From the NCBI RefSeq assembly GCF_002954765.1, contig NZ_MTPW01000001.1:2493501-2557500 (forward strand): a stretch of DNA of 64,000 nucleotides, given 5' to 3'. The position numbers and the translations under genes were made by a program. How positions within the stretch are numbered: position 1 is the stretch's first letter; every line of letters starts with the position of its first letter. Under the pieces are notes generated by a model. It saw only the letters and a list, made by a program, of their open reading frames with translations, did no database searches and was not told where the DNA came from. The DNA is from Nonlabens arenilitoris. Its GTDB lineage: Bacteria > Bacteroidota > Bacteroidia > Flavobacteriales > Flavobacteriaceae. Positions 1,433-63,413 of this stretch are shown here, in pieces.

Positions 1433-2182
1433 ATGAAAAAAATCATCTTTACATTTATTTGTATTTCTGCAGTTTTATTGCAATCCTGTGATAATAAGCC
1501 ATCCCTCAATGCAGACCAGATTATCGATAAAGCACTTCATGCACACGGTAGTGATTTATTAGAAAATTCTGTTATGGAGTTTAATTTTAGAGATATCGCA
1601 TATAAAGCGACACGCAATAGTGGTATCTATGAATTTACTAAAACACGTGCAACTGATTCTACTATCGTTATAGATATATTGAATAATGAAACGAGTAAAC
1701 GTACTATCAATAAAATCCCGCAAAAAATAGCAGATTCAACTATGGCTAATTATGCTAGTAGTGTGAATAGCGTCATTTATTTTGCTCAACTACCTTATAG
1801 TCTCAACGGTACCGCTGTTTATCGCAAATTAATAGGAGAGAAGATTATTAAAAATCAGCCTTACTATAAAATTAAGGTAACATTCGATCCTAATGGTGGT
1901 GGAGAAGATCATGAAGATGAATTTATATATTGGATACATAAAGAAACCTTCCATATAGATTATCTCGCATATTCTTATTGTGAAGAGGATTGTGGATATC
2001 GCTTTCGCGAAAGCGTAAACCGCAGGAGTCTTAAGGGTGTGACCATCCAAGATTATAATAATTATAAAGAATCTGTTCAAGATCCTGATCTCTCACAAAT
2101 GGATCAACTTTTTATCGATGAAAATCTAGAGTTGCTTAGTGAGATAAAATTAGAAGAGGTGCAAATTACATTACTTAAATAA
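1433..2182 (+). CDS. Lipoprotein of unknown function (DUF6503-like)
   Basis: A 249-residue envelope lipoprotein: the signal peptide ends in AVLLQSC, and the mature part begins DNKPSLNADQIIDKALHAHG. That opening, repeated YKATRNSGIYEF-type strands and a late FIYWIHKETFHIDYLAY segment resemble the LolA/LolB-like beta-sheet lipoproteins grouped as DUF6503 in flavobacteria; this is recognition by eye. A copy of the palindromic repeat (2000-2015) lies in frame and encodes RFRES, apparently in a loop before a basic stretch. Function unknown. Confidence 0.7.
   Translation: MKKIIFTFICISAVLLQSCDNKPSLNADQIIDKALHAHGSDLLENSVMEFNFRDIAYKATRNSGIYEFTKTRATDSTIVIDILNNETSKRTINKIPQKIADSTMANYASSVNSVIYFAQLPYSLNGTAVYRKLIGEKIIKNQPYYKIKVTFDPNGGGEDHEDEFIYWIHKETFHIDYLAYSYCEEDCGYRFRESVNRRSLKGVTIQDYNNYKESVQDPDLSQMDQLFIDENLELLSEIKLEEVQITLLK
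2000..2015. repeat. Palindromic repeat, copy 1 (in CDS, frame RFRES)
   Basis: Perfect CGCTTTCGCGAAAGCG inside the lipoprotein gene 1433-2182, read as Arg-Phe-Arg-Glu-Ser. The core is a perfect self-complementary 16-mer. Confidence 0.95.
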
Positions 2183-2335
2183 GTAATTATTTAAATGAAT
2201 GCTTACCATAATAGTTAGCTTTAAAGCTTGTTAAAAGCTGATTTGCTTTAAATGTAGTTTCTATGAGCATAGGTTTTTTAAGTGAGCACCATTTTAGAAT
2301 TGGTAAATAAATTAATGTGTTGATGCTCTAATGGT

Positions 2336-2343
2336 TATATTTG
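2336..2343 (+). promoter_or_regulatory. Candidate -7 promoter element (TATATTTG)
   Basis: TATATTTG 35 bp before the ATG of the fibrinogen-like secreted protein. It matches the Bacteroidota -7 consensus; no convincing -33 element at 19-21 bp. Confidence 0.3.
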
Positions 2344-2378
2344 ACTCTTAAATATTGCTCATATTTTAATTTTTTTAA

Positions 2379-3521: not shown

Positions 3522-3623
3522 TACTAAAAAAGATTCTTAACTACTTTATTTTAAGCCTGATATATATCATATAAGTTGAGGTTACTGTTATTTAATTTTG
3601 AATAAATAACAAAAACTCACAAC

Positions 3624-4040: not shown

Positions 4041-4061
4041 GATTTAGAAAATAATAAGTTA

Positions 4062-4100
4062 CAAAACCTCTATAACCGCAAAGGTTGCATAGAGGTTTTG
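4062..4100. terminator. Bidirectional terminator hairpin
   Basis: A perfect 12-bp stem (CAAAACCTCTAT / ATAGAGGTTTTG) encloses an inner AACC/GGTT stem with loop GCAAA. It lies between the convergent genes at 3624-4040 and 4116-4442, with A/T runs on either side. Confidence 0.8.
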
Positions 4101-7000: not shown

Positions 7001-7020
7001 TACGCTTTCGCGAAAGCGTA
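7001..7020. repeat. Palindromic repeat, copy 2 (intergenic, full 20 bp)
   Basis: TACGCTTTCGCGAAAGCGTA, a perfect 20-bp palindrome and the fullest consensus form. It lies between the S1/P1 nuclease stop and the TMEM175-like start, on the same transcript direction. Confidence 0.97.
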
Positions 7021-10961: not shown

Positions 10962-11723
10962 ATGAAAGCTATAATCATAGAAGATGAAAAACCATCTGCA
11001 AGAAGATTAAGTCGCATGCTAGATGATATAGGTGTAAAGCCAGAGATCATGCTACATTCTGTGCACGAGTCTGTAGAGTACTTACTTAATCATTCAGCGC
11101 CAGACCTGATTTTCCTAGACATACAATTAAGTGATGGATTATCATTTGAGATTTTTGACCAGGTAGACATCAACAGTGCTATTATATTTACCACAGCATA
11201 TGATGAATATGCACTGCAGGCCTTTAAACTTAATAGTATAGATTACCTGTTAAAACCCATTGACGAGGATGAGTTAAAAGCAGCAGTAGAGCGTTTTGAA
11301 TTACGCTTCCGCGAAAGCGAGAAAAAACAGCTCATTGATTTTAATGAAATTGCAAAGATGTTAGGTAATCCAGTAGATCGTGTTTATAAAAAAAGATATA
11401 CGGCCAAGGTAGGTGAGCATCTCAAGTTATTTAATACAGATGAGGTACAGCTTTTTTATTCTGAAAATAAAGGAAGTTATCTTAACCTAGAGAACGGTCG
11501 CAATTATCTTATTGATGATAAACTAGAATCAATTGAGAAAGAACTCGATCCTTCACAATTTTTTCGCATATCGAGACAGGCCATAATAAATGTAAACGCC
11601 ATAGATGATATGATTTCTTATACAAACTCACGTCTTAAAATAAAAATCAACTCTTTTAAAGAAATGGAATTAATAGTCAGTAGGGAACGAGTAAAGGATT
11701 TTAAAAACTGGTTGGAAAAATAA
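10962..11723 (+). CDS. LytTR response regulator
   Basis: 253 residues: receiver domain with acidic pocket E7-D8-E9, phosphoacceptor D53 (LIFLDIQLSDG), and K98 (DYLLKPI); then a LytTR DNA-binding domain (FYSENKGSYLNL, FFRISRQAIINVNAI). It is the output partner of the kinase at 8760 and last gene of the operon. The linker between domains contains a single-mismatch copy of the palindromic repeat (11304-11319) read as RFRES. Terminator 23 bp after the stop. LytTR proteins bind direct repeats; no target is evident here. Confidence 0.95.
   Translation: MKAIIIEDEKPSARRLSRMLDDIGVKPEIMLHSVHESVEYLLNHSAPDLIFLDIQLSDGLSFEIFDQVDINSAIIFTTAYDEYALQAFKLNSIDYLLKPIDEDELKAAVERFELRFRESEKKQLIDFNEIAKMLGNPVDRVYKKRYTAKVGEHLKLFNTDEVQLFYSENKGSYLNLENGRNYLIDDKLESIEKELDPSQFFRISRQAIINVNAIDDMISYTNSRLKIKINSFKEMELIVSRERVKDFKNWLEK
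11304..11319. repeat. Palindromic repeat, copy 3 (in CDS, one mismatch)
   Basis: CGCTTCCGCGAAAGCG: one T-to-C transition from consensus. It lies in the receiver-LytTR linker of the response regulator, read as RFRES. Confidence 0.9.
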
Positions 11724-13261: not shown

Positions 13262-14551
13262 ATGAAAAATCTCATCACCTTTTTAATTTTATTGTTTCTA
13301 GTTTCTTGTGCCACGGCACCTGAACAAAACCAAACAGTAATTACAGACATTAACGACATAGAGTCCTATCTTAATATAGATAGAAACACACTAGTAAAAG
13401 ACTTAAAGTCGCAAACAGAACCATTACAGCTAGACATAGAAAAAGACTCAACACGTATTATTCAAATGTCACGATTAGCTGGATTAAATAATCAATTATA
13501 TGATATTACAGGAGATATAGATTATTTAGAACAAGCAGTACGCTTGCGCGAAAAAGTGCTACAAAGAACAGCTATAAAGCCAGAAAGTGCCCGTAGATCA
13601 CTAGCTCAAATGTATATTAAACAACACCGTTTTAAAGAAGCTGATAGTTTAATGAATACCATAGAGGCTAATGAAAAGCAAGATCAACTTGTGAAATTTG
13701 ATATAGCCATGGAACTAGGAGATTATACAAAGGCAGAAAGCCTATTGAGCTCTATTAAAAATTTAAATGATTACAATTATTTGATAAGAGCTGCAAAATG
13801 GAATGATTATAAAGGCAATCTAGATGATACCATAAGACTGATGGAAAAGGCCATGGAACTAGCAGAAGAAAGTGGTTCAGAAAATTTAATGTTATGGAGT
13901 TATTCTAACATCGCAGACTATTATGGACACCATGGAGATCTCACACTATCTTATAAATATTATTTAAAAACGCTACAGTTAGATCCACAAAATGATTATG
14001 CTTTAAAAGGAATATCCTGGATAGCATATTCCAATGATAATGACATTAAACTGGCATCACAAATAATTAATACGTTACAATCTAGACATGATATACCAGA
14101 CTATAAACTCATTTTAGCAGAATTTGCAGAATATCAAAATAATGAGAGTCAGGCACAGAGATTACGAGATGAATTTTTAAAAGAAACAAATCAGCCTGCT
14201 TACAGAGCAATGTATAATACTTATCGCATTGAAAACTTACTTGCAGGTAATGAAAATCAACAAAAAGCTGGTCTAGAACTAGCTATTGAAGAGGTTGGAA
14301 ACCGGGCTACACCAGAGACTTATGATCTATTAGGTTATGCATATCTAGTCAATAAAATGCCGGTAATTGCTTTGGAAAATCATAAGCGTTTTGTTCAAAA
14401 TAAAACATTTGAACCGGTAGCTCAACTACATCTGGCTCAAATTTTGAAAGAAAATAAATTGGGTGAAGTTGCCCAACCTATTAAGAATGAATTACTAGAG
14501 ACTAGGTATGAATTAGGTCCAGTCACTTATAAAGAAGTGCAACAGATTTAA
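13262..14551 (+). CDS. TPR-repeat lipoprotein
   Basis: 429 residues with lipobox (FLVSCATAP). The body is helical with TPR-like units, for example AEESGSENLMLWSYSNIADYY followed by GDLTLSYKYYLKTLQLDPQN, and YDLLGYAYLVNKMPVIALENH. It follows the DUF4331 pair after a terminator, so it may be partly separately transcribed. Likely an envelope scaffold; partner unknown. Codons at 13539-13558 (RLREK) may be a decayed copy of the palindromic repeat. Confidence 0.75.
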   Translation: MKNLITFLILLFLVSCATAPEQNQTVITDINDIESYLNIDRNTLVKDLKSQTEPLQLDIEKDSTRIIQMSRLAGLNNQLYDITGDIDYLEQAVRLREKVLQRTAIKPESARRSLAQMYIKQHRFKEADSLMNTIEANEKQDQLVKFDIAMELGDYTKAESLLSSIKNLNDYNYLIRAAKWNDYKGNLDDTIRLMEKAMELAEESGSENLMLWSYSNIADYYGHHGDLTLSYKYYLKTLQLDPQNDYALKGISWIAYSNDNDIKLASQIINTLQSRHDIPDYKLILAEFAEYQNNESQAQRLRDEFLKETNQPAYRAMYNTYRIENLLAGNENQQKAGLELAIEEVGNRATPETYDLLGYAYLVNKMPVIALENHKRFVQNKTFEPVAQLHLAQILKENKLGEVAQPIKNELLETRYELGPVTYKEVQQI

Positions 14552-14586: not shown

Positions 14587-14622
<36 letters not shown>

Positions 14623-19314: not shown

Positions 19315-22300
19315 TTAATCCCATAAATCAATTGTAATATCCTTCATTTCTATCACAAAAGGATCCCAGTTTTCAGTCAGCCATTTTTGTGACTCAATAA
19401 TTCTTTCATTTGCTAATTCTCTAGCTTGATTAAATAATTGTGTTTCTGTAGCAGTTTGTGGACCTTGACGGCTGCTTATGTATTGATTTGCTAATCCTAT
19501 ACGATTCATTACAGTGACTTCAGGATTACGAGTAATTCCCTGACGTTTATCAGGTGTACCAAAATACTTATTCTGCTCAAGTTCAATACCTTTTATAATA
19601 GAATCGGTTCTTTTGATTTGATCTTTGTATGCTTTTTTATCCTTATCCTTCATCAACTTAAGGAAGGTTTGGGCTTTCTTTTTATTTACGGCCAGTTGCT
19701 CAGTGATTCCAGATACGGTAATCGATAGAGCTTCTAATCTTTTTTGTGCATCATATTTAGACTTCATGTCTGCCATGCTCAGTTCATCAATCCTAGGATC
19801 TTCTTTAATAGTAATACTGGTTTCACTTTTAGTATTTCCATATTCTAATACGGCTCTATACGTGCCTGGTAATACACGGACACCACTAGGTTCCCTTTTT
19901 GAAGTATTAACTTTTCTTGATGGTCGATCAGCACCTTTTTCTCTCATTCTCCAGCTCCAGGTATGTATACCTTTTTCTTTAGGAACTTTACTAGATAGGG
20001 TGCGTATTAATCTTTCATCATCATAGATTTTTAAATAGATAGAGTCGGATTTTATGGTGTCGTTTTTTGTTTTTAAGTCTTTATTAAAATAGTATTTAAA
20101 TTTTGCTCCACTACCGCGGTTTTCTCCATGGAACATCGCGTCTGCGCCAAATCTACTTCCAGTAGGTTGTTGATATCTAGCAAAGTATGCAGTAGGTGGC
20201 TGGTATAGAGCAATAGGTTGTTGAGGTTGCGCTTTCGCGAAAGCAACAAAAGGAGCAAGGTCGTCTAAAACCCAAGCCGCACGACCAAATGTTCCTATCA
20301 CCAGATCATTCTCGCGCTCTTGAATAGCAAGGTCCTTAACAGAAACGGTAGGGAAACCATTAGTGTATTTTACCCAATCATCGCCAGCGTTAATACTTAC
20401 GTATAGACCATCATCAGTACCTAAAAACATCAAATTGTTCTCTTCTGGATGTTCAATGATACATAAGGCGTAGCTTTCTACATCATCACTATCTACAATT
20501 CTAGTCCAACTTTTACCATAGTTAGTGGTACGATATGCATAGGCCTCAAAGTTGAATCTACGATAATCGTTTGCAACTAGTAGTGCATGACCTTTTTTAG
20601 TTTTTGAGGCTTTTATTTGGGTAATCCAGCTGCCTTGTGGTAGACCTTTTAACCCTTTTGAAATATCTTCCCAACTATCACCACCATTTTTTGTGATGTG
20701 TACTCGGCCATCGTCTGATCCTGTGTACAGAACATCACGTTCTACAGCACTAGGTTCTATGACTAGTATAGTTGTATGATTCTCTGCTCCAGTAGCATCC
20801 ATGGTTAATCCACCAGATTCTGATTGTTTTTGCTTCTCAGGATCATTAGTTGTTAAGTCTGGAGAAATCACTTTCCACGTCAGTCCTTTATCTGTAGATT
20901 TATGAACAAACTGACTACCGAAGTATAAGGTAGCGCTATCAAACGGATCCATGTTGATGGCAGCATTCCAGTTAAAACGTAATTGTACATCTGGATCTGG
21001 ATGTGTAGGTCTAACACTATAGTTATTACCGGTTTGCCAGTCATAACGGCTTACATATCCTTGCTGACTCATAGAATAACCGAATCTACTATTATCTGGA
21101 TCTGGTACAACGTCAAAACCGTCACCAAAGCTGATTTCTTGCCAGTAACTATTTCTGATACCTTGCGCACGCCATGAGTATGCTGGTCCACGCCAGCTAC
21201 CATTATCTTGCATACCACCATAAACATTATATGGTACTTCATCATCTACATTAATATGATAGAATTGTGCCACAGGTAGATTCCCTATAAATCGCCATGT
21301 CTTTCCACGATCACGTGTGATGTTTAAACCTCCATCATTTCCATCGATCATAAATTTACCGTTAGTAGGATGGATGTACCAGGCATGGTGATCGGGATGT
21401 ACACCATTATCTGCATTATAAGCAGGCATCAGTTGTTTAAAGCTTTTACCACCATCGTTTGAGACATTTATGTATGTGAAAACAGAGTACACACGATTCT
21501 CGTTTTGTGAATCCACATATATTTCAGAATAATAGAAAGGTCTATTACCTATATCACTTTTATCATTGATCTTTTTCCACTTAAAACCACCATCTGTAGA
21601 TTTGTACAATGCATTTTTCTTTGCCTCTACTAGTGCATAAACAACATTAGGCTCGCTAGGAGCAATGGCAACACCTATACGGCCTAGCTCGCCTTTGGGT
21701 AATCCATCTTCAGCGGTAATTTTTTTCCAGTTTTCTCCACCATCATGTGTCATATACAATCCCGATCCTTCACCACCAGATTTAAAAAACCATGGATCGC
21801 GTTTATGTTCCCACATGGCAGCGATGAGTTTATTAGGATTAGTAGGGTCCATAACAAGATCTGCTGCACCGGACTTGTCGTTTGTGTAAAGAATTTTTTT
21901 CCATGTTTTTCCACCATCTGTGGTTTTAAAAACACCACGTTCTGGATGAATTCCCCATGGAGAACCTATGGCTGCGGCATAAACGACATCTGGATTAGTA
22001 GGATCAATAATAACTCTATGAATGTTACGGGTTTTTTCAAGTCCCATAGATTTCCATGATTTCCCACCATCGAGTGACTTGTATATACCGTATCCACCGT
22101 TCAAAGAGTTACGTGGATTTCCCTCACCAGTTCCTACCCATATTACACTAGGATTAGATTGTTGAATTGCCACGGCACCTATAGACGCAGTAACTTCATC
22201 TTCAAAAATAGGTTCCCAGGTCACGCCACCGTTTTGTGAGCTCCACAATCCACCACTAGCCGTACCAGCATAAATAATATCTGGATTATCGTGTACCACA

Positions 22301-22440
22301 TCTATAGACGTCACACGACCAGACATACCGCCGGGACCAATGTTGCGAGGTTCTAGATTTTTAACTAATTCTAAATCAAGTTTTTGAGAAAATGCGAGGC
22401 TAGAAATCAAGCAAACGCATAGTATTAGAGTTCTTTTCAT
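19315..22440 (-). CDS. Large exported VPS10/sortilin-like beta-propeller protein
   Basis: 1041 residues with signal peptide (LISSLAFSQ). Residues about 30-720 carry many Asp-box repeats (SLDGGKSW, TTDGGKTW, THDGGENW, STDGGFKW, SNDGGKSF, TKNGGDSW, TTNYGKSW), giving a sialidase/VPS10-type propeller. A C-terminal region (about 740-1041) has Ig-like and helical parts. Often labelled glycosyl hydrolase, but I see no proven catalytic site. A palindromic repeat at 20231-20244 encodes AFAKA exactly in the linker between propeller and C-terminal region. Confidence 0.85.
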   Translation of the reverse strand: MKRTLILCVCLISSLAFSQKLDLELVKNLEPRNIGPGGMSGRVTSIDVVHDNPDIIYAGTASGGLWSSQNGGVTWEPIFEDEVTASIGAVAIQQSNPSVIWVGTGEGNPRNSLNGGYGIYKSLDGGKSWKSMGLEKTRNIHRVIIDPTNPDVVYAAAIGSPWGIHPERGVFKTTDGGKTWKKILYTNDKSGAADLVMDPTNPNKLIAAMWEHKRDPWFFKSGGEGSGLYMTHDGGENWKKITAEDGLPKGELGRIGVAIAPSEPNVVYALVEAKKNALYKSTDGGFKWKKINDKSDIGNRPFYYSEIYVDSQNENRVYSVFTYINVSNDGGKSFKQLMPAYNADNGVHPDHHAWYIHPTNGKFMIDGNDGGLNITRDRGKTWRFIGNLPVAQFYHINVDDEVPYNVYGGMQDNGSWRGPAYSWRAQGIRNSYWQEISFGDGFDVVPDPDNSRFGYSMSQQGYVSRYDWQTGNNYSVRPTHPDPDVQLRFNWNAAINMDPFDSATLYFGSQFVHKSTDKGLTWKVISPDLTTNDPEKQKQSESGGLTMDATGAENHTTILVIEPSAVERDVLYTGSDDGRVHITKNGGDSWEDISKGLKGLPQGSWITQIKASKTKKGHALLVANDYRRFNFEAYAYRTTNYGKSWTRIVDSDDVESYALCIIEHPEENNLMFLGTDDGLYVSINAGDDWVKYTNGFPTVSVKDLAIQERENDLVIGTFGRAAWVLDDLAPFVAFAKAQPQQPIALYQPPTAYFARYQQPTGSRFGADAMFHGENRGSGAKFKYYFNKDLKTKNDTIKSDSIYLKIYDDERLIRTLSSKVPKEKGIHTWSWRMREKGADRPSRKVNTSKREPSGVRVLPGTYRAVLEYGNTKSETSITIKEDPRIDELSMADMKSKYDAQKRLEALSITVSGITEQLAVNKKKAQTFLKLMKDKDKKAYKDQIKRTDSIIKGIELEQNKYFGTPDKRQGITRNPEVTVMNRIGLANQYISSRQGPQTATETQLFNQARELANERIIESQKWLTENWDPFVIEMKDITIDLWD
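20231..20244. repeat. Palindromic repeat, copy 4 (in CDS, frame AFAKA)
   Basis: Perfect GCTTTCGCGAAAGC in the propeller protein gene, read as AFAKA in a proline/glutamine-rich linker. Confidence 0.95.
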
Positions 22441-22478: not shown

Positions 22479-22494
22479 CGCTTTCGCGAAAGCG
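22479..22494. repeat. Palindromic repeat, copy 5 (intergenic)
   Basis: Perfect CGCTTTCGCGAAAGCG, 39 bp upstream of the propeller protein start codon. Confidence 0.95.
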
Positions 22495-25988: not shown

Positions 25989-26004
25989 CGCTTTCGCGAA
26001 AGCG
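25989..26004. repeat. Palindromic repeat, copy 6 (divergent intergenic)
   Basis: Perfect CGCTTTCGCGAAAGCG between the divergent 25331-25894 gene and the second sigma operon, about 60 bp upstream of its ECF-like -35. Confidence 0.95.
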
Positions 26005-28509: not shown

Positions 28510-28525
28510 CGCTTTCGCAAAAGCG
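28510..28525. repeat. Palindromic repeat, copy 7 (one mismatch, ychF leader)
   Basis: CGCTTTCGCAAAAGCG, one G-to-A transition; between the candidate -7 element and the ychF start codon. Confidence 0.9.
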
Positions 28526-30658: not shown

Positions 30659-30684
30659 AATTTCGCTTTCGCGAAAGCGAAATT
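30659..30684. repeat. Palindromic repeat, copy 8 (26-bp perfect palindrome upstream of parE)
   Basis: The core CGCTTTCGCGAAAGCG is extended by complementary AATTT/AAATT arms to 26 bp with no mismatch. It lies between the divergent phosphatase gene and parE, 45 bp before the parE start. Confidence 0.95.
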
Positions 30685-30729: not shown

Positions 30730-32592
30730 ATGGCTGAAAACACGCAATATACAGAGGATAACATCCGCTCACTGGACTGGAAAGAACACATTAGAATGCG
30801 TCCTGGAATGTATATCGGTAAGCTGGGCGATGGATCCAGTGCAGATGATGGTATTTATATTTTAGTTAAAGAGGTTATCGATAACTCAATTGATGAGTTT
30901 GTAATGGGATCTGGTAAAACCATTGAAGTCTCTGTACAAGGTGAACGTGTAACTGTACGTGATTATGGTCGTGGTATACCGCTAGGTAAAGTAGTAGATG
31001 TAGTGTCTAAAATGAATACTGGTGGAAAGTATGATAGTCGTGCCTTTAAAAAATCAGTAGGTTTGAATGGAGTAGGTACTAAGGCTGTAAATGCGTTGTC
31101 CAGTTATTTCCGTGTAGAATCTACTAGGGATGGGAAAAGTGCCAGTGCCGAGTTTTCTCGTGGTGAACTGAATGATCAGGAGATGCTTGAGGAGACATCG
31201 CGTCGCAAAGGAACTAAAATGACCTTTGTGCCAGATGGTGAGATTTTTAAAAATTTTAAATTCCGTCCAGAATATATAGCACGTATGTTGAAAAACTATG
31301 TGTACCTCAATCCTGGATTAACCATTATGTTTAATGGCGAGAAATTCTTCTCTGAAAATGGCTTAAAAGATTTATTGAGTGAAAATATTGTAGATACAGA
31401 TCGATTATACCCTATAATTCACTTGAGAAGTGAAGACATCGAGGTAGCGATCACTCATAGTAGAACGCAGTATAGTGAAGAGTATCACTCATTTGTAAAT
31501 GGCCAGAACACTACCCAAGGAGGAACACATCTAGCAGCTTTTAGAGAAGCACTTGTAAGAACGGTAAGAGAATTTTATGGTAAAAACTATGAAGCTAGCG
31601 ATATACGCAAGTCTATAGTAAGTGCTATAGCCATTAAGGTAATGGAGCCAGTCTTTGAATCACAAACTAAGACAAAACTAGGATCTACAGATATGGGTGG
31701 TGACTTACCAACTGTACGTACCTTTATAAACGATTTTTTAAAGACTAAACTAGATAATTATTTACATAAACATCCTGACGTCGCTGAGGCGATGCAACGC
31801 AAGATTATACAAGCAGAGCGAGAGCGTAAAGATCTTTCAGGAATTAGAAAATTGGCACGTGATCGTGCTAAAAAAGCTAGTCTACACAATAAAAAGTTAC
31901 GAGATTGCCGTGTTCATTTAACTGACAGTAAAAAAGAAAATAATCTAGAAAGCACCTTATTTATTACCGAAGGTGATTCGGCTAGTGGATCTATTACAAA
32001 ATCTCGTAACGTTAATACACAAGCGGTTTTTTCGCTACGTGGTAAACCGTTGAATTCTTATAACATGTCTAAAAAGATCGTGTATGAGAATGAGGAATTT
32101 AATTTGTTGCAAGCAGCTCTCAATATTGAAGACAGTATGGAAGATTTGCGATATAATAAGATAGTTATCGCAACTGATGCAGATGTGGACGGTATGCACA
32201 TTAGATTATTGCTTATCACCTTCTTTTTACAGTTTTTTCCAGAATTGATAAAAAAAGGACATATTTATATCTTACAAACTCCACTCTTTAGAGTACGTAA
32301 TAAAAAGGAAACAAGGTATTGCTACACGCCAGAAGAACGTGCAGCAGCATTAGCAGAATTAGGTAAAAATCCTGAGATTACTCGATTTAAAGGTTTAGGT
32401 GAAATAAGCCCAGATGAGTTCAAGCATTTTATAGGTGAGGACATGCGTCTAGATCCTTTAATGTTAGATGATAACATGAGTATTGAAGATTTACTGAGAT
32501 TCTACATGGGTAAAAATACACCTGATCGTCAAGAATTTATCATCGATAATTTGAAAGTAGAACTAGATATAATTGAAGAAGATACTGTGTAG
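30730..32592 (+). CDS. parE: DNA topoisomerase IV subunit B
   Basis: 620 residues. GHKL ATPase: [34 protein letters not shown]; transducer [13 protein letters not shown]; Toprim: [24 protein letters not shown]; and C-terminal [13 protein letters not shown]. With ParC it decatenates chromosomes. The length and the adjacent parC favour ParE over GyrB. A palindromic repeat starts 2 bp after the stop. Confidence 0.94.
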
Positions 32593-32594: not shown

Positions 32595-32610
32595 CGCTTT
32601 TGCGAAAGCG
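32595..32610. repeat. Palindromic repeat, copy 9 (one mismatch)
   Basis: CGCTTTTGCGAAAGCG, one C-to-T transition, between parE and the GldL-like gene. It is the spacer of a probable operon, so it would be transcribed. Confidence 0.9.
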
Positions 32611-35574: not shown

Positions 35575-35605
35575 AATCCTGCTTTTGCGAAAGCAGGATT
35601 TTTAT
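35575..35605 (+). terminator. parC terminator built on palindromic repeat copy 10
   Basis: An 11-bp stem AATCCTGCTTT / AAAGCAGGATT, tetraloop TGCG, followed by TTTATTTTT. The centre GCTTTTGCGAAAGC (35581-35594) is the repeat core with one C-to-T transition; the outer arms (AATCCT/AGGATT) differ from the usual TACGC/GCGTA but remain paired. 19 bp past the parC stop. Confidence 0.85.
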
Positions 35606-39085: not shown

Positions 39086-39103
39086 ACGCTTTCGCGAAAG
39101 CGT
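39086..39103. repeat. Palindromic repeat, copy 11 (intergenic)
   Basis: ACGCTTTCGCGAAAGCGT, perfect over 18 bp, 21 bp past the adhesin stop, directly ahead of a separate terminator hairpin. Confidence 0.95.
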
Positions 39104-43322: not shown

Positions 43323-43841
43323 ATGACTCGTAAAGAACTTCAATCAGGCGAGTATAACAGTTATTATGATCACTATTTAAATTTAGTACCTGAGTCTGCA
43401 TCGATCGATACCATATTGCAATCTAGTTTAGAGGATACGATACGTTTTATCAACAAAATTGATAAACCATTTGATACTACTTATGCGACTGGTAAATGGA
43501 GTATAGGTGAGGTCTTAATGCATAATATCGATACTGAGCGTGTTTTTGCTTATCGAGCACTGCGATTTATGAGAGGTGATCAAACGCCTTTACCTGGATT
43601 TGATCAAGATGTGTTTGCTCAAGACTATAGTAATTACGCTTTCGCGAAAGCGGACTTAATAAATTCCTTTAAGGCCACTAGAAATGCGACTATCGATCTA
43701 TTTAAATCGATTACTGCAAAACAGTTAATATCAAGAGGTGTAGCGAGCGAAAGCCCTATGAGTGTAAGAGTTATACCATTTTTAATCGCTGGTCATAACA
43801 AACACCACGAAAATGTTATTAGAGAGCGTTATTTAAGTTAA
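43323..43841 (+). CDS. DinB-family metal-binding protein
   Basis: 172 residues, four-helix DinB/YfiT fold. Likely ligands: the histidine of GKWSIGEVLMHNIDTERVFAYR, and the pair in IAGHNKHHENVI. Such proteins are often thiol-dependent transferases; substrate unknown. In-frame palindromic repeat at 43637 encodes AFAKA in NYAFAKADLIN, within an inter-helix region. Confidence 0.9.
   Translation: MTRKELQSGEYNSYYDHYLNLVPESASIDTILQSSLEDTIRFINKIDKPFDTTYATGKWSIGEVLMHNIDTERVFAYRALRFMRGDQTPLPGFDQDVFAQDYSNYAFAKADLINSFKATRNATIDLFKSITAKQLISRGVASESPMSVRVIPFLIAGHNKHHENVIRERYLS
43637..43652. repeat. Palindromic repeat, copy 12 (in CDS, frame AFAKA)
   Basis: Perfect CGCTTTCGCGAAAGCG inside the DinB-family gene. 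Confidence 0.95.
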
Positions 43842-49484: not shown

Positions 49485-49504
49485 TACGCTTTCGCGGAAG
49501 CGTA
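49485..49504. repeat. Palindromic repeat, copy 13 (one mismatch)
   Basis: TACGCTTTCGCGGAAGCGTA, one A-to-G transition, in the divergent spacer between 49035-49445 and the aldehyde dehydrogenase. Confidence 0.92.
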
Positions 49505-53535: not shown

Positions 53536-56484
53536 TTACCATTCTAGCGTGTTACACTCATAAAGAGTTTTAGTAGATTGTTTAGGCTCTTGTGTTTTAA
53601 GTCCTTTATTCTTTGCAGCGATCATTTCATTGATGAGCTGCTGGCGTTCTTCTTTTATGCTTTCGCGAAAGCGTAAATCACGTTCCTTATCAAAAAACAC
53701 AATCCCATCGATCATAGTGACCTCGGCAGTTGCGGTTACTGATAAAGGATTATCTGACCAAAGAACTAGATCTGCATCTTTTCCAGTTTTAATACTTCCT
53801 GTACGATCATCGATATGTAAAAGTTTTGCAGGATTTAAGGTTACAAATTTCCAAGCATCTTCTTCGCTCACGTTACCATACTTAACAGCTTTTGCAGCTT
53901 CTTGATTTAAACGTCTAGACATTTCAGCATCATCAGAGTTGATTGCGGTTACAACACCTTGAGAATGCATAATGGCTGCGTTATAAGGTATCGCGTCGTT
54001 AACTTCATATTTATAAGCCCACCAATCAGAGAATGTAGATCCACCTACACCATGTTCTCTCATCTTATCGGCCATTTTATAACCTTCGAGAATATGCGTA
54101 AAGGTGTTGATACGGAAACCGTGCTTCTCAGCCACTTTCATTAACATATTGATTTCGGTCTGTACATAAGAGTGACAAGAAACAAATCGCTCGCTTTCTA
54201 GAATTTCTAGAATAACTTCCATTTCTTCATCATAGCGGAAATTCTTTTTGCCTTTAGAGTCTGCATATTCTCTTGCACGCGTAAAGTAATCTTCAAATAC
54301 TTGTTCTACACCCATACGAGTCTGTGGGAAACGCACGCCGTTTTGGTAACGAGATTGTTTTACATTTTCACCTAATGCAAATTTTATAAACTTAGGACTG
54401 TCAGAATAAATCATTTCTTCTGGAGAATAGCCCCATTTCAATTTGATAATTGCACTACGTCCACCTATAGGGTTTGCTGATCCATGTAAGAGTTGTGAGG
54501 TTGTCACTCCACCAGCAAGGTCTCTGTAAATATTTACATCTTCGTGATCTACGACGTCTTCAATAGTAACCTCGGCAGTAGAATTGTGTCCTGCTTCATT
54601 GACACCATTATCTATAGCGATGTGACTATGTTCATCTATAATACCGCTAGTTAAGTGTTTTCCTGTAGCATCGATTACTCTAGCGTTACCAGCACTAAGG
54701 TTTTTACCTATCTTATATATTTTACCATTTTTAACCAGTACATCTGTGTTTTCTAAAATTCCATCTTTCTCATTAGTCCATACGGTCGCGTTGCGATACA
54801 GTATAGTCTCTTCTTGAGGTTTTGTAGCGCTTCCATAGCTTACATTTGGAAAGGTGAGTGGACCTAAAGTTTTAGTTTCCTTTTTCTTTTCATCCTTCTC
54901 TTTTTCATCCTTTTCTTTCTCAACATTTTTAGTTGCGGTAAAAGAAACTTCATTACCATTTGCTAGGTATGCAGTACCTGTCAAACGATCTTCTTTAGAA
55001 ACTTTACTAATCATTCTAGTAAAGGTCTTATCATCTGCATTTTTTTGAGAAGCCGTAATAGTAATCCAATTACCATCATAAGCGATTTTTCCACCTAATT
55101 TAGTACTGTCTATTTTGATACTTACTTTTTTAGCATCTCCAGAAATATCCATTTTATAGGTATCTCCTGCGATAAGAGCCGTGTAAGATCCATCGATATC
55201 CTTAAGGTGACGATCTTTAATGACATGCTTAGAGCCTTGAACCCAATTTTCATAGATTTTACTATCTTCCTCAAATAATGGCCCAGAAGTCATAATAAAG
55301 TTAGCGACTTTACCTTTTTCAAGAGTTCCTACCATATCGCTTACGCCCAAAATCTGTGCAGGCTTAGTCGTTAATGCTGCAAGAGCTTGGTCTTCAGTAA
55401 GTCCATATTCCATCGCCATCTTTAATTTCTCCATCAATTTATCTGGTGATTTTAAGCCTTGACTAGTGATGGCATAATTAATTCCGGCTTTAGAAAGTAA
55501 AAATGGATTTGCAGGTGCTTGTTTCCATTCACGCATATCTGCTAGATTCACATACCATTCTTGATATGGGTTAGTCACATCATAGGCATCTGGGAAATTT
55601 ATAGGTAGAATTAATGACGCATTAGTTGCTTTTATATCGTCTATCATTTCATAAGCGTCTTCACCACCTACAATAACAAATTGTTTACCGACACGATCAC
55701 CCATTTTATCTACTCTCAATACATTTTTTTTATCGCCAGCTTCAATAATTTGAACTAAGTTTTTATTAGCGACTAGGGCTTCAAGAGATAGATCGCGTGT
55801 AGTACTATTTCCTTTTGAATACCAGTCTGCATCAAAATGAGTCTGGCGCAATAATGCCAGTGTACCCATTAATGAAGTAGGATAAGATTGTCTAGTTTGA
55901 ACACTACGTTTCAAAGAAAAGAAGTTACCGCTTTCTTTTTTAAGAATGCGCATCCCATCATCTCCATTATTGTTTAGTGCCACCAGCATACCAGTTCCTC
56001 GAGCAATACCGTCATTCATGTGTGTTTGAACCGCACCATAACCAGCATCAATCATATTTTTAGCTTCTTTCTCATCATATTTATAGAAGTCTAGTGCATC
56101 CTGCTCTGCGCGGATGTGGTCGTTCCAGTAAAAACCTTGACGGCTTTCATCATATTGCTGACCGCTGCCCGAAGCACGTTTAGCCTTTTCCATTCCAAAA
56201 TCTGCATAAGGCTCGATAAAAGATGGGTAGATGTAACTTCCATTTGCATCCTGAATAACTGCTCCGGTAGGAACGGTTATACCGCTTCCTATATTAGAGA
56301 TTTTACCATCCTTAAGGATAATTGTTCCATTAGTAATAACGGTGCCTGGTTGAGTAACAATAGTCGCATTGGTAATGGCAACTATAACCTCACCACGTGC
56401 AGATATGTCGTCGTTATTAGGGAAGTAGTCCTGCGCACTGGCTATACCACATGCTAGGAAAATGAGTAGTAGAACTCGTTTCAT
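53536..56484 (-). CDS. Large exported two-module amidohydrolase
   Basis: 982 residues. Signal peptide (LACGIASAQ). The N-terminal module (about 20-430) has the fold but not HxH (IYPSFIEPYADFG) yet keeps ALAALTTKPAQILGV. A Lys/Glu-rich linker (about 520-538) leads to a C-terminal module with HSH (LTSGIIDEHSHIAIDNG, about residue 618), FVSCHSYVQTE, and the aspartate in AINSDDAEMSRRL. Probably a secreted hydrolase of cyclic amides or peptides. A repeat copy near the C-terminus encodes RFRES. Confidence 0.88.
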   Translation of the reverse strand: MKRVLLLIFLACGIASAQDYFPNNDDISARGEVIVAITNATIVTQPGTVITNGTIILKDGKISNIGSGITVPTGAVIQDANGSYIYPSFIEPYADFGMEKAKRASGSGQQYDESRQGFYWNDHIRAEQDALDFYKYDEKEAKNMIDAGYGAVQTHMNDGIARGTGMLVALNNNGDDGMRILKKESGNFFSLKRSVQTRQSYPTSLMGTLALLRQTHFDADWYSKGNSTTRDLSLEALVANKNLVQIIEAGDKKNVLRVDKMGDRVGKQFVIVGGEDAYEMIDDIKATNASLILPINFPDAYDVTNPYQEWYVNLADMREWKQAPANPFLLSKAGINYAITSQGLKSPDKLMEKLKMAMEYGLTEDQALAALTTKPAQILGVSDMVGTLEKGKVANFIMTSGPLFEEDSKIYENWVQGSKHVIKDRHLKDIDGSYTALIAGDTYKMDISGDAKKVSIKIDSTKLGGKIAYDGNWITITASQKNADDKTFTRMISKVSKEDRLTGTAYLANGNEVSFTATKNVEKEKDEKEKDEKKKETKTLGPLTFPNVSYGSATKPQEETILYRNATVWTNEKDGILENTDVLVKNGKIYKIGKNLSAGNARVIDATGKHLTSGIIDEHSHIAIDNGVNEAGHNSTAEVTIEDVVDHEDVNIYRDLAGGVTTSQLLHGSANPIGGRSAIIKLKWGYSPEEMIYSDSPKFIKFALGENVKQSRYQNGVRFPQTRMGVEQVFEDYFTRAREYADSKGKKNFRYDEEMEVILEILESERFVSCHSYVQTEINMLMKVAEKHGFRINTFTHILEGYKMADKMREHGVGGSTFSDWWAYKYEVNDAIPYNAAIMHSQGVVTAINSDDAEMSRRLNQEAAKAVKYGNVSEEDAWKFVTLNPAKLLHIDDRTGSIKTGKDADLVLWSDNPLSVTATAEVTMIDGIVFFDKERDLRFRESIKEERQQLINEMIAAKNKGLKTQEPKQSTKTLYECNTLEW
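53659..53672. repeat. Palindromic repeat, copy 14 (in CDS, frame RFRES)
   Basis: Perfect GCTTTCGCGAAAGC near the C-terminal end of the large amidohydrolase, after the last recognisable strand. Confidence 0.95.
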
Positions 56485-56570: not shown

Positions 56571-57632
56571 TCAGCTATTAACTAATAATGCGACTACATA
56601 ACTATAAGTCTTCATCCCATCTGGTTGATTGTTTGCTTTTAAATACTGATTGTAAGTAGCTTGTGATACTTGCTCAATAACATTATCATCATATGGAGCC
56701 CAGAAGTCTCTCAGTTCTTGATAGTTTTTTAAAATACCTGGCCTTAGATCAGCTTTTATTTCCTCAAAAGCCTCAGGATCTTTAGTGTATAAATCGTTCA
56801 ATAAATACTTCAACCCAAAAATGCTTGCGCTGTATTGGAAATGTACATCTTCGTGATTCAGTCCAGCTTGAATGGCAACATAGTTAGCCTCATTTTCTTT
56901 TGCAAATCCCAGCTGGTGCGACATCTCATGCAATATCAACACAGGTGTTTTATAGCAATTGATCCATGCATTAGTATGAGCTTCGCCGGTTATCGGATTC
57001 AAATAACCACTGTATCCCATTTGAGTTAAAGGCATCGTGAGTAATGACTCCTTGATACTATTCGGTCTCAGACTTTGTTTTAATTGAGGTTGCGGTAAAT
57101 TCTCAAATCCGCTGGGTGCGATTTTAAATAGTTCTTTTTGTGATCGATTAAAGGCTACCGGCAAACTATCGACAGGTTGCAAAGATTCATGTAATCGATT
57201 TGAAATAATCGTATAGTCTTCTACTGTCTTCTTTAGTTGATCAACGGTATATTCTCGTTCAATATTTAGCGTCACATTCAGCGGCTGTCTATAATAATTA
57301 AATCCCCATAAAACTTGAAAAGTGAGTAAGATGATGTTTAATGAAAATAGGAGTTGCGTATAACGCTTTCGCGAAAGCGTAATTAAATCCATCTTACTGA
57401 TCCATAACCATCTTAATATCATTACAATTCCTGCCATGTACATCAGGTCACCAAAGGATATTGGAATCCAACCTAATCCGATGCGCATGGCTTTAGAGAT
57501 ATATGGATATATCCCATTACTGTAATATTTTTCGATAAATGATGGGAAATTTCTAAGATTATAATACGTCAGTATTTGTAGAGCCAGAAGGCCTATCGCT
57601 ATTACTACATGACGTTTTCTAGTTCCGAGCAT
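56571..57632 (-). CDS. DUF3810 membrane protein with HExxH motif
   Basis: 353 residues. Three N-terminal helices (HVVIAIGLLALQILTYY, FGDLMYMAGIVMILRWLW, LLFSLNIILLTFQVLWGF), then a periplasmic domain with LILHEMSHQLGFAKENEANYVA, the HExxH-plus-glutamate zinc pattern of DUF3810. A peptidase role is likely but untested to my knowledge. A palindromic repeat in the loop between helices 2 and 3 encodes LSRKR. Confidence 0.88.
   Translation of the reverse strand: MLGTRKRHVVIAIGLLALQILTYYNLRNFPSFIEKYYSNGIYPYISKAMRIGLGWIPISFGDLMYMAGIVMILRWLWISKMDLITLSRKRYTQLLFSLNIILLTFQVLWGFNYYRQPLNVTLNIEREYTVDQLKKTVEDYTIISNRLHESLQPVDSLPVAFNRSQKELFKIAPSGFENLPQPQLKQSLRPNSIKESLLTMPLTQMGYSGYLNPITGEAHTNAWINCYKTPVLILHEMSHQLGFAKENEANYVAIQAGLNHEDVHFQYSASIFGLKYLLNDLYTKDPEAFEEIKADLRPGILKNYQELRDFWAPYDDNVIEQVSQATYNQYLKANNQPDGMKTYSYVVALLVNS
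57364..57379. repeat. Palindromic repeat, copy 15 (in CDS, frame LSRKR)
   Basis: Perfect CGCTTTCGCGAAAGCG in DUF3810, the only copy read in the third frame, giving a basic loop (LITLSRKRYTQ). Confidence 0.95.
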
Positions 57633-59436: not shown

Positions 59437-61818
59437 ATGAAAAGAATTCTATTTATAAGTACTTTAGTTTTGTTTTATTCCGCTTTCGCGAAAGCGCAAT
59501 CACAATCATCCAAACAAGAATTTAAAGGCTACTATAACTTTACTTACTCTGAAGATAAAGGTAACATACTTCTAGAAGTCAAAGATTTAGATAAGGAATT
59601 TCTATATGTTTATTCATTAAGTACTGGTTTAGGATCTAATGACATAGGTCTCGATAGAGGTAAGTTGGGTGATGGAGTTGTGGTCAAATGGGTGAAAAGT
59701 GGTCATAAATTACTACTCATGCAGCCCAACCTTAAATACCGTGCGAGTAGTGATAATGAAAAGGAACGCGCTTCTATCAATCAAGCATTTGCACAGTCGG
59801 TTTTATACGGTTTTGAAATAAAATCACAGAAAGATGGTGTTTACACGATTGATATAACGTCGTTTTTAATGCAGGATACTTTTGGTGTAGCGGCAACACT
59901 CAAACGAAACAAAGAAGGTACTTACAAAGTAGATAAATCTCGCAGCGCTTTGTGGATGGAAAACACAAAATCTTTCCCTGAAAATAGTGAGTTTGAAGCC
60001 ATGCTCACTTTTACAGGAACACCGACTGGTCGCAACCTAAGAAGCGTCGCACCAGATGCCAAAGCCATTACGGTTATACAACATCACAGTTTTGTAAAAT
60101 TACCAGATGCTGGATATCAGCCTCGCGTTTTCCATCCACGTAGTGGTTCTTTTTATGTGAGTTATATGGATTATAGCACACCAGTTTATGAACCTATTCA
60201 AAAACGTTTTATAACCAGACATCGATTAGAGAAAAAAAATCCTGACGCTGCTTTAAGTGAACCAGTAGAGCCTATTATTTATTATCTAGATCCTGGTACA
60301 CCAGAGCCTGTGCGTAGTGCCTTATTAGATGGAGCTGGCTGGTGGAATACCGCTTTTGAAACTGCAGGATATAAAAATGCATTTCAAGTAAAAATGTTAC
60401 CCGATGGCGCAGATCCTATGGATTTAAGATATAATGTCATTCAATGGGTACACCGCAGCACACGAGGCTGGAGTTATGGCGCGAGCATTACGGATCCACG
60501 AACAGGCGAAATCATCAAAGGTCATGTAAGTCTAGGAAGTTTGCGTATAAGACAAGATTTTATGATCGCTCAAGGTTTACTTAAAGAACCTTTTAAAGAT
60601 AGCGATGAGAACCACAATGAGATGATGGAACTAGCACTAGCACGTATCAGGCAATTAGGAGCTCATGAGGTAGGACACACGCTAGGCTTTGCCCATAATT
60701 TTGCTGCCAGTACTAATGATAGAGCTAGTGTGATGGATTATCCACATCCTAGATTAGATTTAGTTGATGGAGAAATAAGTCTTGAAGATGCTTATGATGA
60801 AGGAATGGGCGCATGGGATGATTTAACGGTTCAATATTCTTATGGAAACCCAGATAAGACTCAATCTGAAGTGCAATATTTAAAAGGTATTATTGATAAA
60901 GCTACTGCTCAAAATTTAAGATTTATATCAGACAGTGATTCTAGAGCTGCTGGTGGCGCACATGCTCAAGCTCATTTATGGGATAATGGAAGTCAACCTG
61001 GAGCAGAACTAGAGCGTATGCTAGAAATACGTCAAGTAGCGATGAATCAATTTAGTATTGATAACATCAGGACAGATGAGCCGCTAAGTGTGCTGGAAGA
61101 TGTTTTTGTACCTGTTTATTATGGCCATCGTTATCAGGTAGAAGCAACCGCAAAATGGATAGGCGGAATGGAATACAACTATGCTACAAAAGGTGATCCT
61201 GTAGAAATGAGATATCTTTCAAAACAAGAACAAATGAGTGCTTTAAAAGCTCTTTTAAAAACTCTTGAGGTAGAACAATTAATGATACCGACTGATTTAC
61301 TAGAGTTGTTCCCACCACGAGCTTATGGTTACTCTCGCGGTAGAGAAAGTTTTAAGAGTGAAGTAGGCGTGGCATTTGATCCATTGCATGCTGCTGCCAG
61401 TAGTGCAGACATGACATTGAGTTTCTTAATGCATCCACAGCGTGTGAATCGATTGGTTCAAATTAAAGCTATAGAGCCAGATAATCTAGGACTAAAAGAA
61501 TTATTAGAAAACATAACCGAAGTAGTTTTTGAAAATGAAACCAATTCTAACTATCAAAATGCCATTGAGCAGCGCGTTCAAGAACGACTCGTCATGCAAT
61601 TGATAAATGCTCATGCTAACTCACGAACAAATGTAGCGGCTAAAGGTTTGATCAGAAGTCAATTGTTAACCATCGACAAGAAACTTAAAAGACTTAAAAA
61701 TGCCATGGCTCTAGAATTACGTTCTCAAATCGAGCAGTATTTTAAAGATCCAACTAAGTTTAAAGTCATCACATTACCTAGTTTACCGGATGGTAGTCCT
61801 ATAGGTTGTGGTGAGTAG
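59437..61818 (+). CDS. Secreted zinc-dependent metalloprotease (DUF5117/DUF4953-like)
   Basis: 793 residues. The extended zinc motif GAHEVGHTLGFAHNF (H410, E411) is metzincin-like (HExxHxxGxxH) followed by SVMDYPHPR, the Met-turn. The N-terminal region (about 40-220) matches DUF5117. The signal peptide carries a palindromic repeat: LFYSAFAKAQSQ, so the repeat encodes the cleavage-site region itself. Role: extracellular protein degradation (inference). Confidence 0.92.
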   Translation: MKRILFISTLVLFYSAFAKAQSQSSKQEFKGYYNFTYSEDKGNILLEVKDLDKEFLYVYSLSTGLGSNDIGLDRGKLGDGVVVKWVKSGHKLLLMQPNLKYRASSDNEKERASINQAFAQSVLYGFEIKSQKDGVYTIDITSFLMQDTFGVAATLKRNKEGTYKVDKSRSALWMENTKSFPENSEFEAMLTFTGTPTGRNLRSVAPDAKAITVIQHHSFVKLPDAGYQPRVFHPRSGSFYVSYMDYSTPVYEPIQKRFITRHRLEKKNPDAALSEPVEPIIYYLDPGTPEPVRSALLDGAGWWNTAFETAGYKNAFQVKMLPDGADPMDLRYNVIQWVHRSTRGWSYGASITDPRTGEIIKGHVSLGSLRIRQDFMIAQGLLKEPFKDSDENHNEMMELALARIRQLGAHEVGHTLGFAHNFAASTNDRASVMDYPHPRLDLVDGEISLEDAYDEGMGAWDDLTVQYSYGNPDKTQSEVQYLKGIIDKATAQNLRFISDSDSRAAGGAHAQAHLWDNGSQPGAELERMLEIRQVAMNQFSIDNIRTDEPLSVLEDVFVPVYYGHRYQVEATAKWIGGMEYNYATKGDPVEMRYLSKQEQMSALKALLKTLEVEQLMIPTDLLELFPPRAYGYSRGRESFKSEVGVAFDPLHAAASSADMTLSFLMHPQRVNRLVQIKAIEPDNLGLKELLENITEVVFENETNSNYQNAIEQRVQERLVMQLINAHANSRTNVAAKGLIRSQLLTIDKKLKRLKNAMALELRSQIEQYFKDPTKFKVITLPSLPDGSPIGCGE
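59481..59496. repeat. Palindromic repeat, copy 16 (in signal peptide, frame AFAKA)
   Basis: Perfect CGCTTTCGCGAAAGCG encoding SAFAKAQ; AKA fits the small-x-small rule for signal peptidase I. Confidence 0.95.
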
Positions 61819-61820
61819 GT

Positions 61821-63413
61821 TTAATTTGTTTTCCCAACTCTTGTCAAATCCAACATATTCACTGCATTAGTTTCTAAACCGCTGACTTTTTTACTGATAA
61901 AACGTACACTTTCATCATAATAAAGAGGAACGATAGGAGCTTCACTTATAATGATAGAATCCATTTTTATATAGAGTTCTTTACGATCTGTAGCGTTAGG
62001 CAAGGTGAGTGCTTGCTCGTAAAACAGGTCGTATGTATCATTTTTAAAGTGCGTGTAGTTAGGTCCGTTAGGAGAGAAGTTTTTAGAATACCCTAGCGAT
62101 AAATAATTCTCGGCATCGGGATAATCGGCAATCCAGCTCGAGCGGAAGATATCTAGTTTTCCAGCACTACGGGCTTGGCGTAATGTAGATGGTGGCATGA
62201 CTTCTACAATTGTTTTCACACCTATTTTTTCAAGTTCTTTCTGAATGAATTCGCACAGGTCTAGATAATTAGCACCAGTGGTAATCGTAATTTCGGGATT
62301 AGTGTCACCAGTTTCAGTAATATATTGTTGTACTAATCGTTGTGCTTCATGGATATCATATTCATAACCTTTTACCACGCCACCAGCTGGTAGTCCGGCA
62401 GGAATGAGTCCGCTAGTTGCAGGAATACCTATATTGTTGCGCAGGTATTTGATCATCTTCTTTCTGTCAAATCCTTTATTAATCGCCTGTCTAATCAGTT
62501 TGTTTTGTAGTTCTGGAGTGTCGCTGTCTAGGTATAAACCTAGATATTCTGTATTTAAAAATGGAGCTTTTACTAATTTAGTGGTAGATAAGTATTTTGA
62601 TTTTAATTCTCCAGTAGTAGTCAGCAATTCATCTTTATAACTAGGATCAATAGCATTTATAAAATCTAAATTTCCTTGAGCATATTCTAGGAATTCACTT
62701 TGTTTATCATTTTTAAAAGTGATGGCGACCGCTTCTAGGTAAGGTAATGCTTTGCCAGTACTGTCTTTTTCGTGATAGTTGTTATTCTTGCGCAGTACCA
62801 TTTTTACATTTTCTTCCCATCGTTTTAAATAGAAAGGTCCAGTGCCCACAGGATTTGAACGGTATTCATTTCCATATTTTTCTACAGCTTCTGGTAATAC
62901 CACACTACAAAATTTCATGGTAAGTAATCCTAAGAATGCTGGAAATGGCTTTTTTAAAGTGATTCTTAATTGGTGCTCATCAATCGCGTTTATCGCAGCA
63001 ACGTTAGACATTACCCATGCACCAGGAGATGCTACCGCTGGATCTGTCAATCGTTCTAGGGAATATTTAAAGTCTAGTGCGGTTACTGGTCTCGCTTTCG
63101 CGAAAGCGTTTACTTCTTGAAAATAAATATCTTTCTTAAGTTGAAAAGTATAAACCAGTCCATCTTTACTGATGACCCAATCACTAGCAAGATCTGGAAC
63201 TACCTCGAGATTGTTATCCAGTTTTACCAGTCCATTATAAATTAAATTGCATGCCCATATATTGCGCTGATCTTTTGCAAATGCAGGATCTAGAGTGGTG
63301 ATGTTTGCATGTTCATTATATCTGAAAACTGTTGTTTCATCAATGGTAATACTAGTATCACCGCAATTGATGAATAGGAGCGACAGTAATAAAAAACAGC
63401 ATTTTTTAATCAT
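61821..63413 (-). CDS. Oligopeptide ABC transporter substrate-binding lipoprotein
   Basis: 530 residues, lipobox (LFINCGD). SBP family 5: ITTLDPAFAKDQRNIWACNLIYNGLVKLD, DLASDWVISKDGLVYTFQL, VTALDFKYSLERL, NPVGTGPFYLKRWEEN. It delivers peptides or similar to an ABC permease not in the window. A palindromic repeat at 63093 is read as AFAKA in QEVNAFAKARPVTALDF, a surface loop before the conserved VTAxDF. Confidence 0.92.
   Translation of the reverse strand: MIKKCCFLLLSLLFINCGDTSITIDETTVFRYNEHANITTLDPAFAKDQRNIWACNLIYNGLVKLDNNLEVVPDLASDWVISKDGLVYTFQLKKDIYFQEVNAFAKARPVTALDFKYSLERLTDPAVASPGAWVMSNVAAINAIDEHQLRITLKKPFPAFLGLLTMKFCSVVLPEAVEKYGNEYRSNPVGTGPFYLKRWEENVKMVLRKNNNYHEKDSTGKALPYLEAVAITFKNDKQSEFLEYAQGNLDFINAIDPSYKDELLTTTGELKSKYLSTTKLVKAPFLNTEYLGLYLDSDTPELQNKLIRQAINKGFDRKKMIKYLRNNIGIPATSGLIPAGLPAGGVVKGYEYDIHEAQRLVQQYITETGDTNPEITITTGANYLDLCEFIQKELEKIGVKTIVEVMPPSTLRQARSAGKLDIFRSSWIADYPDAENYLSLGYSKNFSPNGPNYTHFKNDTYDLFYEQALTLPNATDRKELYIKMDSIIISEAPIVPLYYDESVRFISKKVSGLETNAVNMLDLTRVGKTN
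63093..63108. repeat. Palindromic repeat, copy 17 (in CDS, frame AFAKA)
   Basis: Perfect CGCTTTCGCGAAAGCG in the substrate-binding protein gene. Confidence 0.95.

Follow-up and report, generated by a model that had tools for sequence, protein, structure and literature searches.

A highly iterated, evenly spaced palindrome in Nonlabens genomes, possibly a tag of self DNA

Results

In a 64-kb stretch of the 3.32-Mb genome of Nonlabens arenilitoris (C1:2493501-2557500 of genome G000; hereafter the window), the palindromic 14-mer GCTTTCGCGAAAGC was found at 17 sites, of which 12 were exact and 5 had one mismatch; no two-mismatch form was present. Around the 14-mer, a larger symmetric motif spans about 50 bp, and its outward flanks are rich in A and C and poor in G. 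We tentatively favor the reading that the palindrome is a selected 'self' tag for DNA uptake or recombination, and we give this reading somewhat less than an even chance. The recount gave the same 12 perfect and 5 one-mismatch cores as an initial annotation of this DNA; the sites that it listed were real, but its positions were shifted by 0–6 bases.

Chance and base composition were ruled out as the source of these copies by Markov nulls and by a reversed-pattern control, which gave no match in G000, in the 299 genomes of a family survey or in 23 Nonlabens genomes. In the window, 12 exact 14-mers were observed, compared with 1.5e-5 to 9e-5 expected under Markov models of orders 1–3. In 764 kb of G000, 117 exact copies were observed, compared with 1.3e-4 to 1e-3 expected (orders 1–5, sites masked), and with the sites left unmasked the order-5 model expected 0.31. 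The runner-up palindromic 14-mer in the same 764 kb had 2 copies (a masked run of N was disregarded). The whole genome contained 550 exact copies and 677 at up to one mismatch. Seven of the genome-wide sites were on two small contigs, C2 and C3 (L138 and L139), which are near-perfect inverted duplications and probably assembly artefacts. The initial annotation had claimed an iterated palindrome, in and between genes, beyond what composition would give, and had suggested a Markov test and counts in the genome and its relatives; both bore the claim out. It had also named shared ancestry of the flanking genes as a possible source of the copies. This source was rejected, since the flanks of the inspected sites were unlike one another outside the motif (compared by eye, no clustering).

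Besides the exact copies, the 764 kb of G000 contained 32 one-mismatch, 7 two-mismatch and 28 three-mismatch matches. When the one-mismatch sites of G000 were pooled with those of another Nonlabens genome, G242, two out of seven symmetric position classes accounted for 37 of the 41 mismatches and three others for none, so the near-misses were not random decay. In two site-rich genomes outside the genus, G206 and G190, the mismatches were more scattered and two-mismatch forms were commoner (15 and 13, respectively). As for longer forms of the core, the window contained 10 copies of the 16-mer CGCTTTCGCGAAAGCG and 3 of the 18-mer form, and the 20-mer that headed the initial annotation was exact at one of the 17 sites.

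These near-misses bear on a comparison with HIP1 of cyanobacteria (GCGATCGC), which is also a highly iterated palindrome of unsettled role. The HIP model, in the part of PMC4390886 that was available, concerns such a palindrome at high density, and the Nonlabens site could by analogy be a by-product of an orphan methylase acting with methyl-directed mismatch repair. The iteration and density of the site agree with that model, as does the inner hexamer TCGCGA in G206 and G190, where its count outside the sites was a little above composition (44 vs 31 and 53 vs 39, respectively). In Nonlabens, however, the same count was below composition (51 vs 72 in G000 and 18 vs 28 in G242). Furthermore, HIP1 near-misses are biased to end positions according to the same part of PMC4390886, whereas the 37 of 41 described above were at inner positions. 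The Nonlabens core is also longer (14–16 bp vs 8) and has conserved flanks, its short spacings are excluded and its coding sites are fixed in position. We consider this origin very improbable, and a HIP1-style methylase ratchet was not supported in Nonlabens, where TCGCGA is unenriched outside the sites and forms mismatched at the ends are rare.

In the flanks, counted outward from the core, the two arms favored G at position 1, A at positions 3–4, A at position 10 and C around positions 12–16. Both also avoided G, with a strong effect over roughly the first 19 bp and a weaker one as far as about 31 bp. On each strand, the 5' side of the core is rich in T and G and the 3' side in A and C. This bias was observed in coding and intergenic copies alike and was stronger in the intergenic ones. 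The flank pattern of G000 was repeated in G242; in G206 it extended to about 19 bp, whereas in G190 it was faint. The bases adjacent to the core differed by species, being GTAA in G000 and mostly GGAA or GAAA in G242. The left and right arms scarcely covaried, which argues for a two-armed preference and not for a longer hairpin. A longer hairpin was also rejected on mirror matching within sites: outside the core, the only positions above chance were 2 (z 3.1) and 7–8 (z 2.1), counted outward. The claim of the initial annotation that the flanks sometimes extend the palindrome thus holds weakly at these positions, but the main flank signal is a base preference of each arm. Compensation between core and flank was considered and was not found: the flanks of one-mismatch sites were poorer than those of exact sites (6.35 for exact against 4.95 for one-mismatch sites, P 0.11, in G000; 7.36 against 2.32, P 0.003, in G206), and no trade-off between arms was seen.

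Individual sites were compared between G000 and G242 in codon-by-codon alignments of 81 orthologues. For all nine coding sites of G000, G242 has a site at the same codons, and in the reverse direction this held for 9 of 12 coding sites; among control 14-base windows, 15% differed by at most one base. The comparison of orthologous loci for presence or absence, another check proposed in the initial annotation, thus found the coding sites of G000 in place in G242. The site at 43638, within the gene of a 172-residue protein, was at the same codons in all nine Nonlabens aligned, at identities down to 51%, and was exact in eight of them and had one mismatch in N. antarcticus. This site, which encodes AFAKA, was absent from five of five homologues outside the genus, which carry other residues; one of these was from the site-rich G190, so the site is not common to Nonlabens and the genus of G190. 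Rough mapping by flanking genes showed that many intergenic sites were retained and that some were not found (28511 in Flavobacteria bacterium BBFL7; 22480 and 32596 in G242, where the gene matches were weak; 35581 in three Nonlabens). Taken at the sequence level, the sites appear to be held by selection on the DNA itself.

The initial annotation had proposed a minimal mobile element as one possibility, and a mobile palindrome resembling REP or MITE elements would account for the many copies and for single copies in hairpin-capable flanks, such as the one after the topoisomerase IV subunit A gene. The coding copies, however, are conserved codon for codon between species, even at 51% identity in the gene described above; the spacing is even, and the flank bias fades past about 31 bp. 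In addition, G190, with 408 exact sites, had no match to the Y1_Tnp transposase family, a member of which would be expected alongside a REP/RAYT repeat in every genome. The other four site-rich genomes had 1–6 Y1_Tnp matches, so this absence is not general. We find a mobile element scarcely credible, and the proposal was not supported, given the codon-identical coding copies and the result for G190.

All 23 Nonlabens genomes searched, three of them less than 90% complete, contained 288–857 exact copies. In the family survey (299 genomes of 236 genera, G000 included), a match was found in 61 genomes and more than 400 copies in only five, namely three Nonlabens, G190 (408) and G206 (857); the next highest count was 19. 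In a phylum survey of 395 genomes, again with G000 included, 22 had a match. Eight of these were outside the family and had one match each, and the reversed control also gave one match in 14 genomes, so the single matches outside the family were at chance level.

By topoisomerase IV subunit A (ParC), the closest named relatives of G000 were Nonlabens ulvanivorans (95%) and BBFL7 (93%). Among 80 named ParC loci, exact sites were present at seven of the seven loci of the Nonlabens group (BBFL7 included by its place in the tree) and at none of the other 73, of which one had a one-mismatch site and two had a two-mismatch site. In ParC trees, G206 and G190 grouped with a further genome, G144 (100/99 in both trees). 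This group adjoined Nonlabens with 93/81 in one tree; in the second, the branch separating the other 42 rows had only 81/31. Constraining the eleven site-rich rows together without G144 was rejected (p-AU 0.001), because G144 falls beside G190. G144 itself had 9 exact and 20 one-mismatch sites distributed over many contigs, and the 20 of these 29 sites whose flanks were inspected showed the motif bias in weaker form. Three of the 29 (two exact and one mismatched) have the spacing of a travelling island described below and may be imports. The simplest history suggested by this one gene tree would be a single gain and a single loss, with decaying relics in G144, which appears to have lost the system.

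The spacing of the sites was more even than expected. In G000, none of 128 intervals was shorter than 1 kb, compared with 24 expected at random, and 4 were shorter than 2 kb, compared with 44 expected. In G242, the corresponding values were 0 of 69 intervals vs 15 expected and 4 vs 27, with a coefficient of variation of 0.42. Under a null that kept the coding/intergenic ratio (364 kb of G000), the observed minimum interval was reached in 0 of 5,000 trials. The mean spacing was 4.8 kb in G000, 4.0 kb in G242, 3.4 kb in G206 and 6.0 kb in G190. Exceptions were observed in the latter two: the spacing in one of two G190 stretches could be random (P 0.17), a shortage of intervals below 2 kb was not clear in one of two G206 pieces (P 0.08), and G206 had intervals as short as 411 bp. 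The initial annotation had put the spacing at roughly 2–6 kb but missed its regularity.

Sampled in 20 stretches around the chromosome, one being partly masked, the density was 2–6 sites per 20 kb, without zoning at that resolution. According to a crude gene finder, 36 of 71 sites were intergenic, where 12% of the bases are, and 35 were within coding sequence. All four gene orientations were represented among the intergenic sites, 9 of which were between divergent genes. The copies in coding sequence and between divergent genes excluded an intrinsic terminator as the general role, although single copies may double as terminators.

Two site-free gaps, of 20.6 and 25.2 kb, were found in G000, and five proteins were examined in each. 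The 20.6-kb gap (C1:2458722-2479299; L124 and L125) is occupied by an island beside mnmE, likely a recent one, that encodes a tyrosine integrase and a prokaryotic Argonaute-like protein with a Piwi domain. The 25.2-kb gap consists mostly of small genes, with FRG and WG-repeat proteins. A site-bearing region with metal-resistance genes and RteC was found in G160 (C1:306001-340000; L140 and L141), and a pair of sites 933 bp apart recurred in eight genomes (G076, G078, G087, G101 [L142], G144, G160, G215 and G287). The metal-resistance region with this pair, present in several genera, looks like the footprint of transfer from the site-rich clade. A search of plasmid and phage records gave 3 and 7 weak partial matches, respectively, none of which covered 80% of the query.

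The sites of the window illustrate these placements. Exact sites within coding sequence were at 2001..2014, at 20231..20244 in the gene of a sortilin-like protein (19315-22440; also in G242), at 43638..43651 (ORF 43323-43841, the AFAKA site), at 53659..53672 in an amidohydrolase gene (53536-56484), at 57365..57378 and at 63094..63107 (61821-63413). The coding site at 11305..11318 had one mismatch, and its position is the same in G242. An exact site at 59482..59495 was close to the 5' end of ORF 59437-61818; this site and those at 53659 and 57365 were also present in both G242 and G010, the third site-rich Nonlabens genome of the family survey. Between genes, exact sites were at 7004..7017, the sole copy with the complete 20-mer, at 22480..22493 and at 39088..39101, and a one-mismatch site was at 28511..28524, which was also found in N. 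ulvanivorans and G242 and which had two mismatches in BBFL7. Divergent genes flanked an exact site at 25990..26003, also present in N. ulvanivorans and BBFL7, and a one-mismatch site at 49488..49501. Three sites accompanied the topoisomerase IV genes: an exact one at 30665..30678 upstream of the subunit B gene (30730-32592), a one-mismatch one at 32596..32609 between this gene and the subunit A gene (32872-35556), and a one-mismatch one at 35581..35594 directly 3' of the latter, where it lies in a terminator-like hairpin followed by T residues. Elsewhere in the window, a 949-residue trimeric-adhesin-like protein with YadA-head repeats (8 matched stretches) is encoded at 36215-39064, and TAAG stands in nine perfect tandem copies at 14587-14622, just past ORF 13262-14551.

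Discussion

The observations described above would call for a sequence-specific reader with kilobase reach. If the palindrome is a self tag for uptake or recombination, the site of about 50 bp would be the target of a DNA-handling machine that recognizes this sequence and reaches several kilobases, and the site would mark DNA as 'self'. Fragments from kin that carry the site would be preferentially taken up or recombined. New sites would spread only where none is nearby, and mutated sites would be restored; even spacing of 4–5 kb, as seen in Nonlabens, would follow from these two processes. Tagging of this kind would also lead to accumulation without a benefit at each site, to new islands free of sites, to decay after loss and to species-specific flanks. 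We infer a single reader protein, a machine that serves uptake or recombination and a spread driven by biased uptake. In a bolder form, which we hold to be possible but on the doubtful side, the site would be a clade-wide 'licence plate', a two-armed tag of about 50 bp every few kilobases. The machine would then treat DNA without a nearby tag as foreign, resident phages and conjugative islands would be forced to acquire the tag at host density, and the tag would decay when the machine is lost.

The uptake signal sequences (USS) of Pasteurellaceae and the DNA uptake sequences (DUS) of Neisseriaceae resemble the Nonlabens site in having hundreds of copies that are evenly spread in and between genes, mismatched forms that are far fewer than exact ones, and flanks whose preferred bases differ from species to species. 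The parts of PMC1939737 and PMC7811141 that were available describe the Haemophilus uptake sequences as evenly spaced. Among flavobacteria, Riemerella columbina prefers its own DNA; the signal was unidentified in a study that, in its available part, counted words of up to 10 bp (PMC7965970). ComEC was present in all five site-rich genomes searched.

Several points weigh against an uptake tag. ComEC was found in 18 of the 18 genomes searched, G144 included, and so does not track the site. No receptor or reader protein was found: ParB, Y1_Tnp, ComEC and PDDEXK_1 were searched in 18 genomes each, and none tracks the site. To our knowledge, no uptake experiment has been reported in Nonlabens. Mobile elements of Haemophilus and Neisseria are generally described as poor in uptake sequences, whereas the Nonlabens site, though absent from the two long gaps of G000 (one of them the integrase island), occurs at host density on some phage contigs and on an island. 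Of 16 viral records, selected for holding sites, all had 1–8 sites, and 7 phage contigs (L122, L314, L037 and L046 and related records of IMG/VR) had 5–8 in 24–40 kb, which is the host density. Two of these seven carried Mu-like portal and terminase genes, or transposase genes, and the flank bias of the viral sites was the same as that of the host but weaker. In G076, 25 of 26 sites were in one 78-kb stretch (C3:32331-110029) with metal-efflux and recombinase genes. Known uptake sequences are non-palindromic according to the available part of PMC1939737, whereas the Nonlabens core is perfectly palindromic; uptake through a two-armed site some 50 bp long would be without precedent. The spacing in Haemophilus is about 1 kb in the available part of PMC7811141, and the Nonlabens sites are several times sparser.

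A rather doubtful alternative is that the site organises the chromosome, with a homodimeric nucleoid protein that binds the palindrome and its flanks and, at intervals of a few kilobases, loops or anchors whatever replicon is resident. The perfect palindrome and the two-armed flank preference described above agree with such a protein, as do the exclusion of short spacings in Nonlabens and the presence of sites in all four kinds of intergenic region, in coding sequence, in every chromosome stretch sampled, on phage contigs and on islands. The sites of Noc/ParB, MatP and SlmA, as generally described, are also palindromic, of similar length and dispersed over the chromosome; the Nonlabens site has far more copies and, in the stretches sampled, showed none of the zoning of these systems. 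One ParB_N match was found in each of G000, G010, G242, G190 and G206, so there is no Noc-like paralogue. Moreover, gaps of 20–25 kb are tolerated, G144 seems to manage without the system, and it is hard to picture hundreds of sites being built up one by one. An organising protein would explain the symmetry of the site but not the tolerated gaps.

It is unlikely that the site is instead a Chi-like signal for repair or defence, at which a helicase-nuclease that degrades broken or foreign DNA would switch to recombination; being palindromic, the site would work from both directions. The mean spacing of 4.0–4.8 kb in Nonlabens is near the value usually given for Chi in Escherichia coli, the strand-wise flank bias would suit single-strand reading, and foreign replicons can carry Chi, as 7 of the 16 viral records and an island carry the Nonlabens site at host density. 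A nuclease-domain family (PDDEXK_1), which we take to be AddAB, is present. However, this family was found in 18 of 18 genomes, including G144 and relatives with few sites, so it does not explain the distribution of the site. The Chi sequences generally known for RecBCD and AddAB are 5–8 bases long and directional, whereas the Nonlabens site is a non-directional 14-bp palindrome.

We place the Nonlabens site among highly iterated recognition sequences and assign it to no named family. In the open-access literature, we found no description of the 14-mer, nor of its inner octamer in flavobacteria, and no report of an uptake sequence for Bacteroidetes or Flavobacteria; one occurrence of TTTCGCGAAA in print, in the part of the article that was available, concerns human absent words.

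The symmetric consensus is directly usable in pull-downs and competition assays, and the hosts of the site-dense phage contigs might be assigned from the tag. The clade also offers a natural experiment, with the site in all 23 Nonlabens genomes, an apparent loss in G144, and phage contigs and islands that carry it. If the site is Chi-like or architectural, few signals of that kind known to us would be as long or as regular. If it is an uptake tag, as we tentatively favor, we know of no earlier example in Bacteroidota and of no other palindromic one, and the tag would bear on the preference of another flavobacterium for its own DNA.

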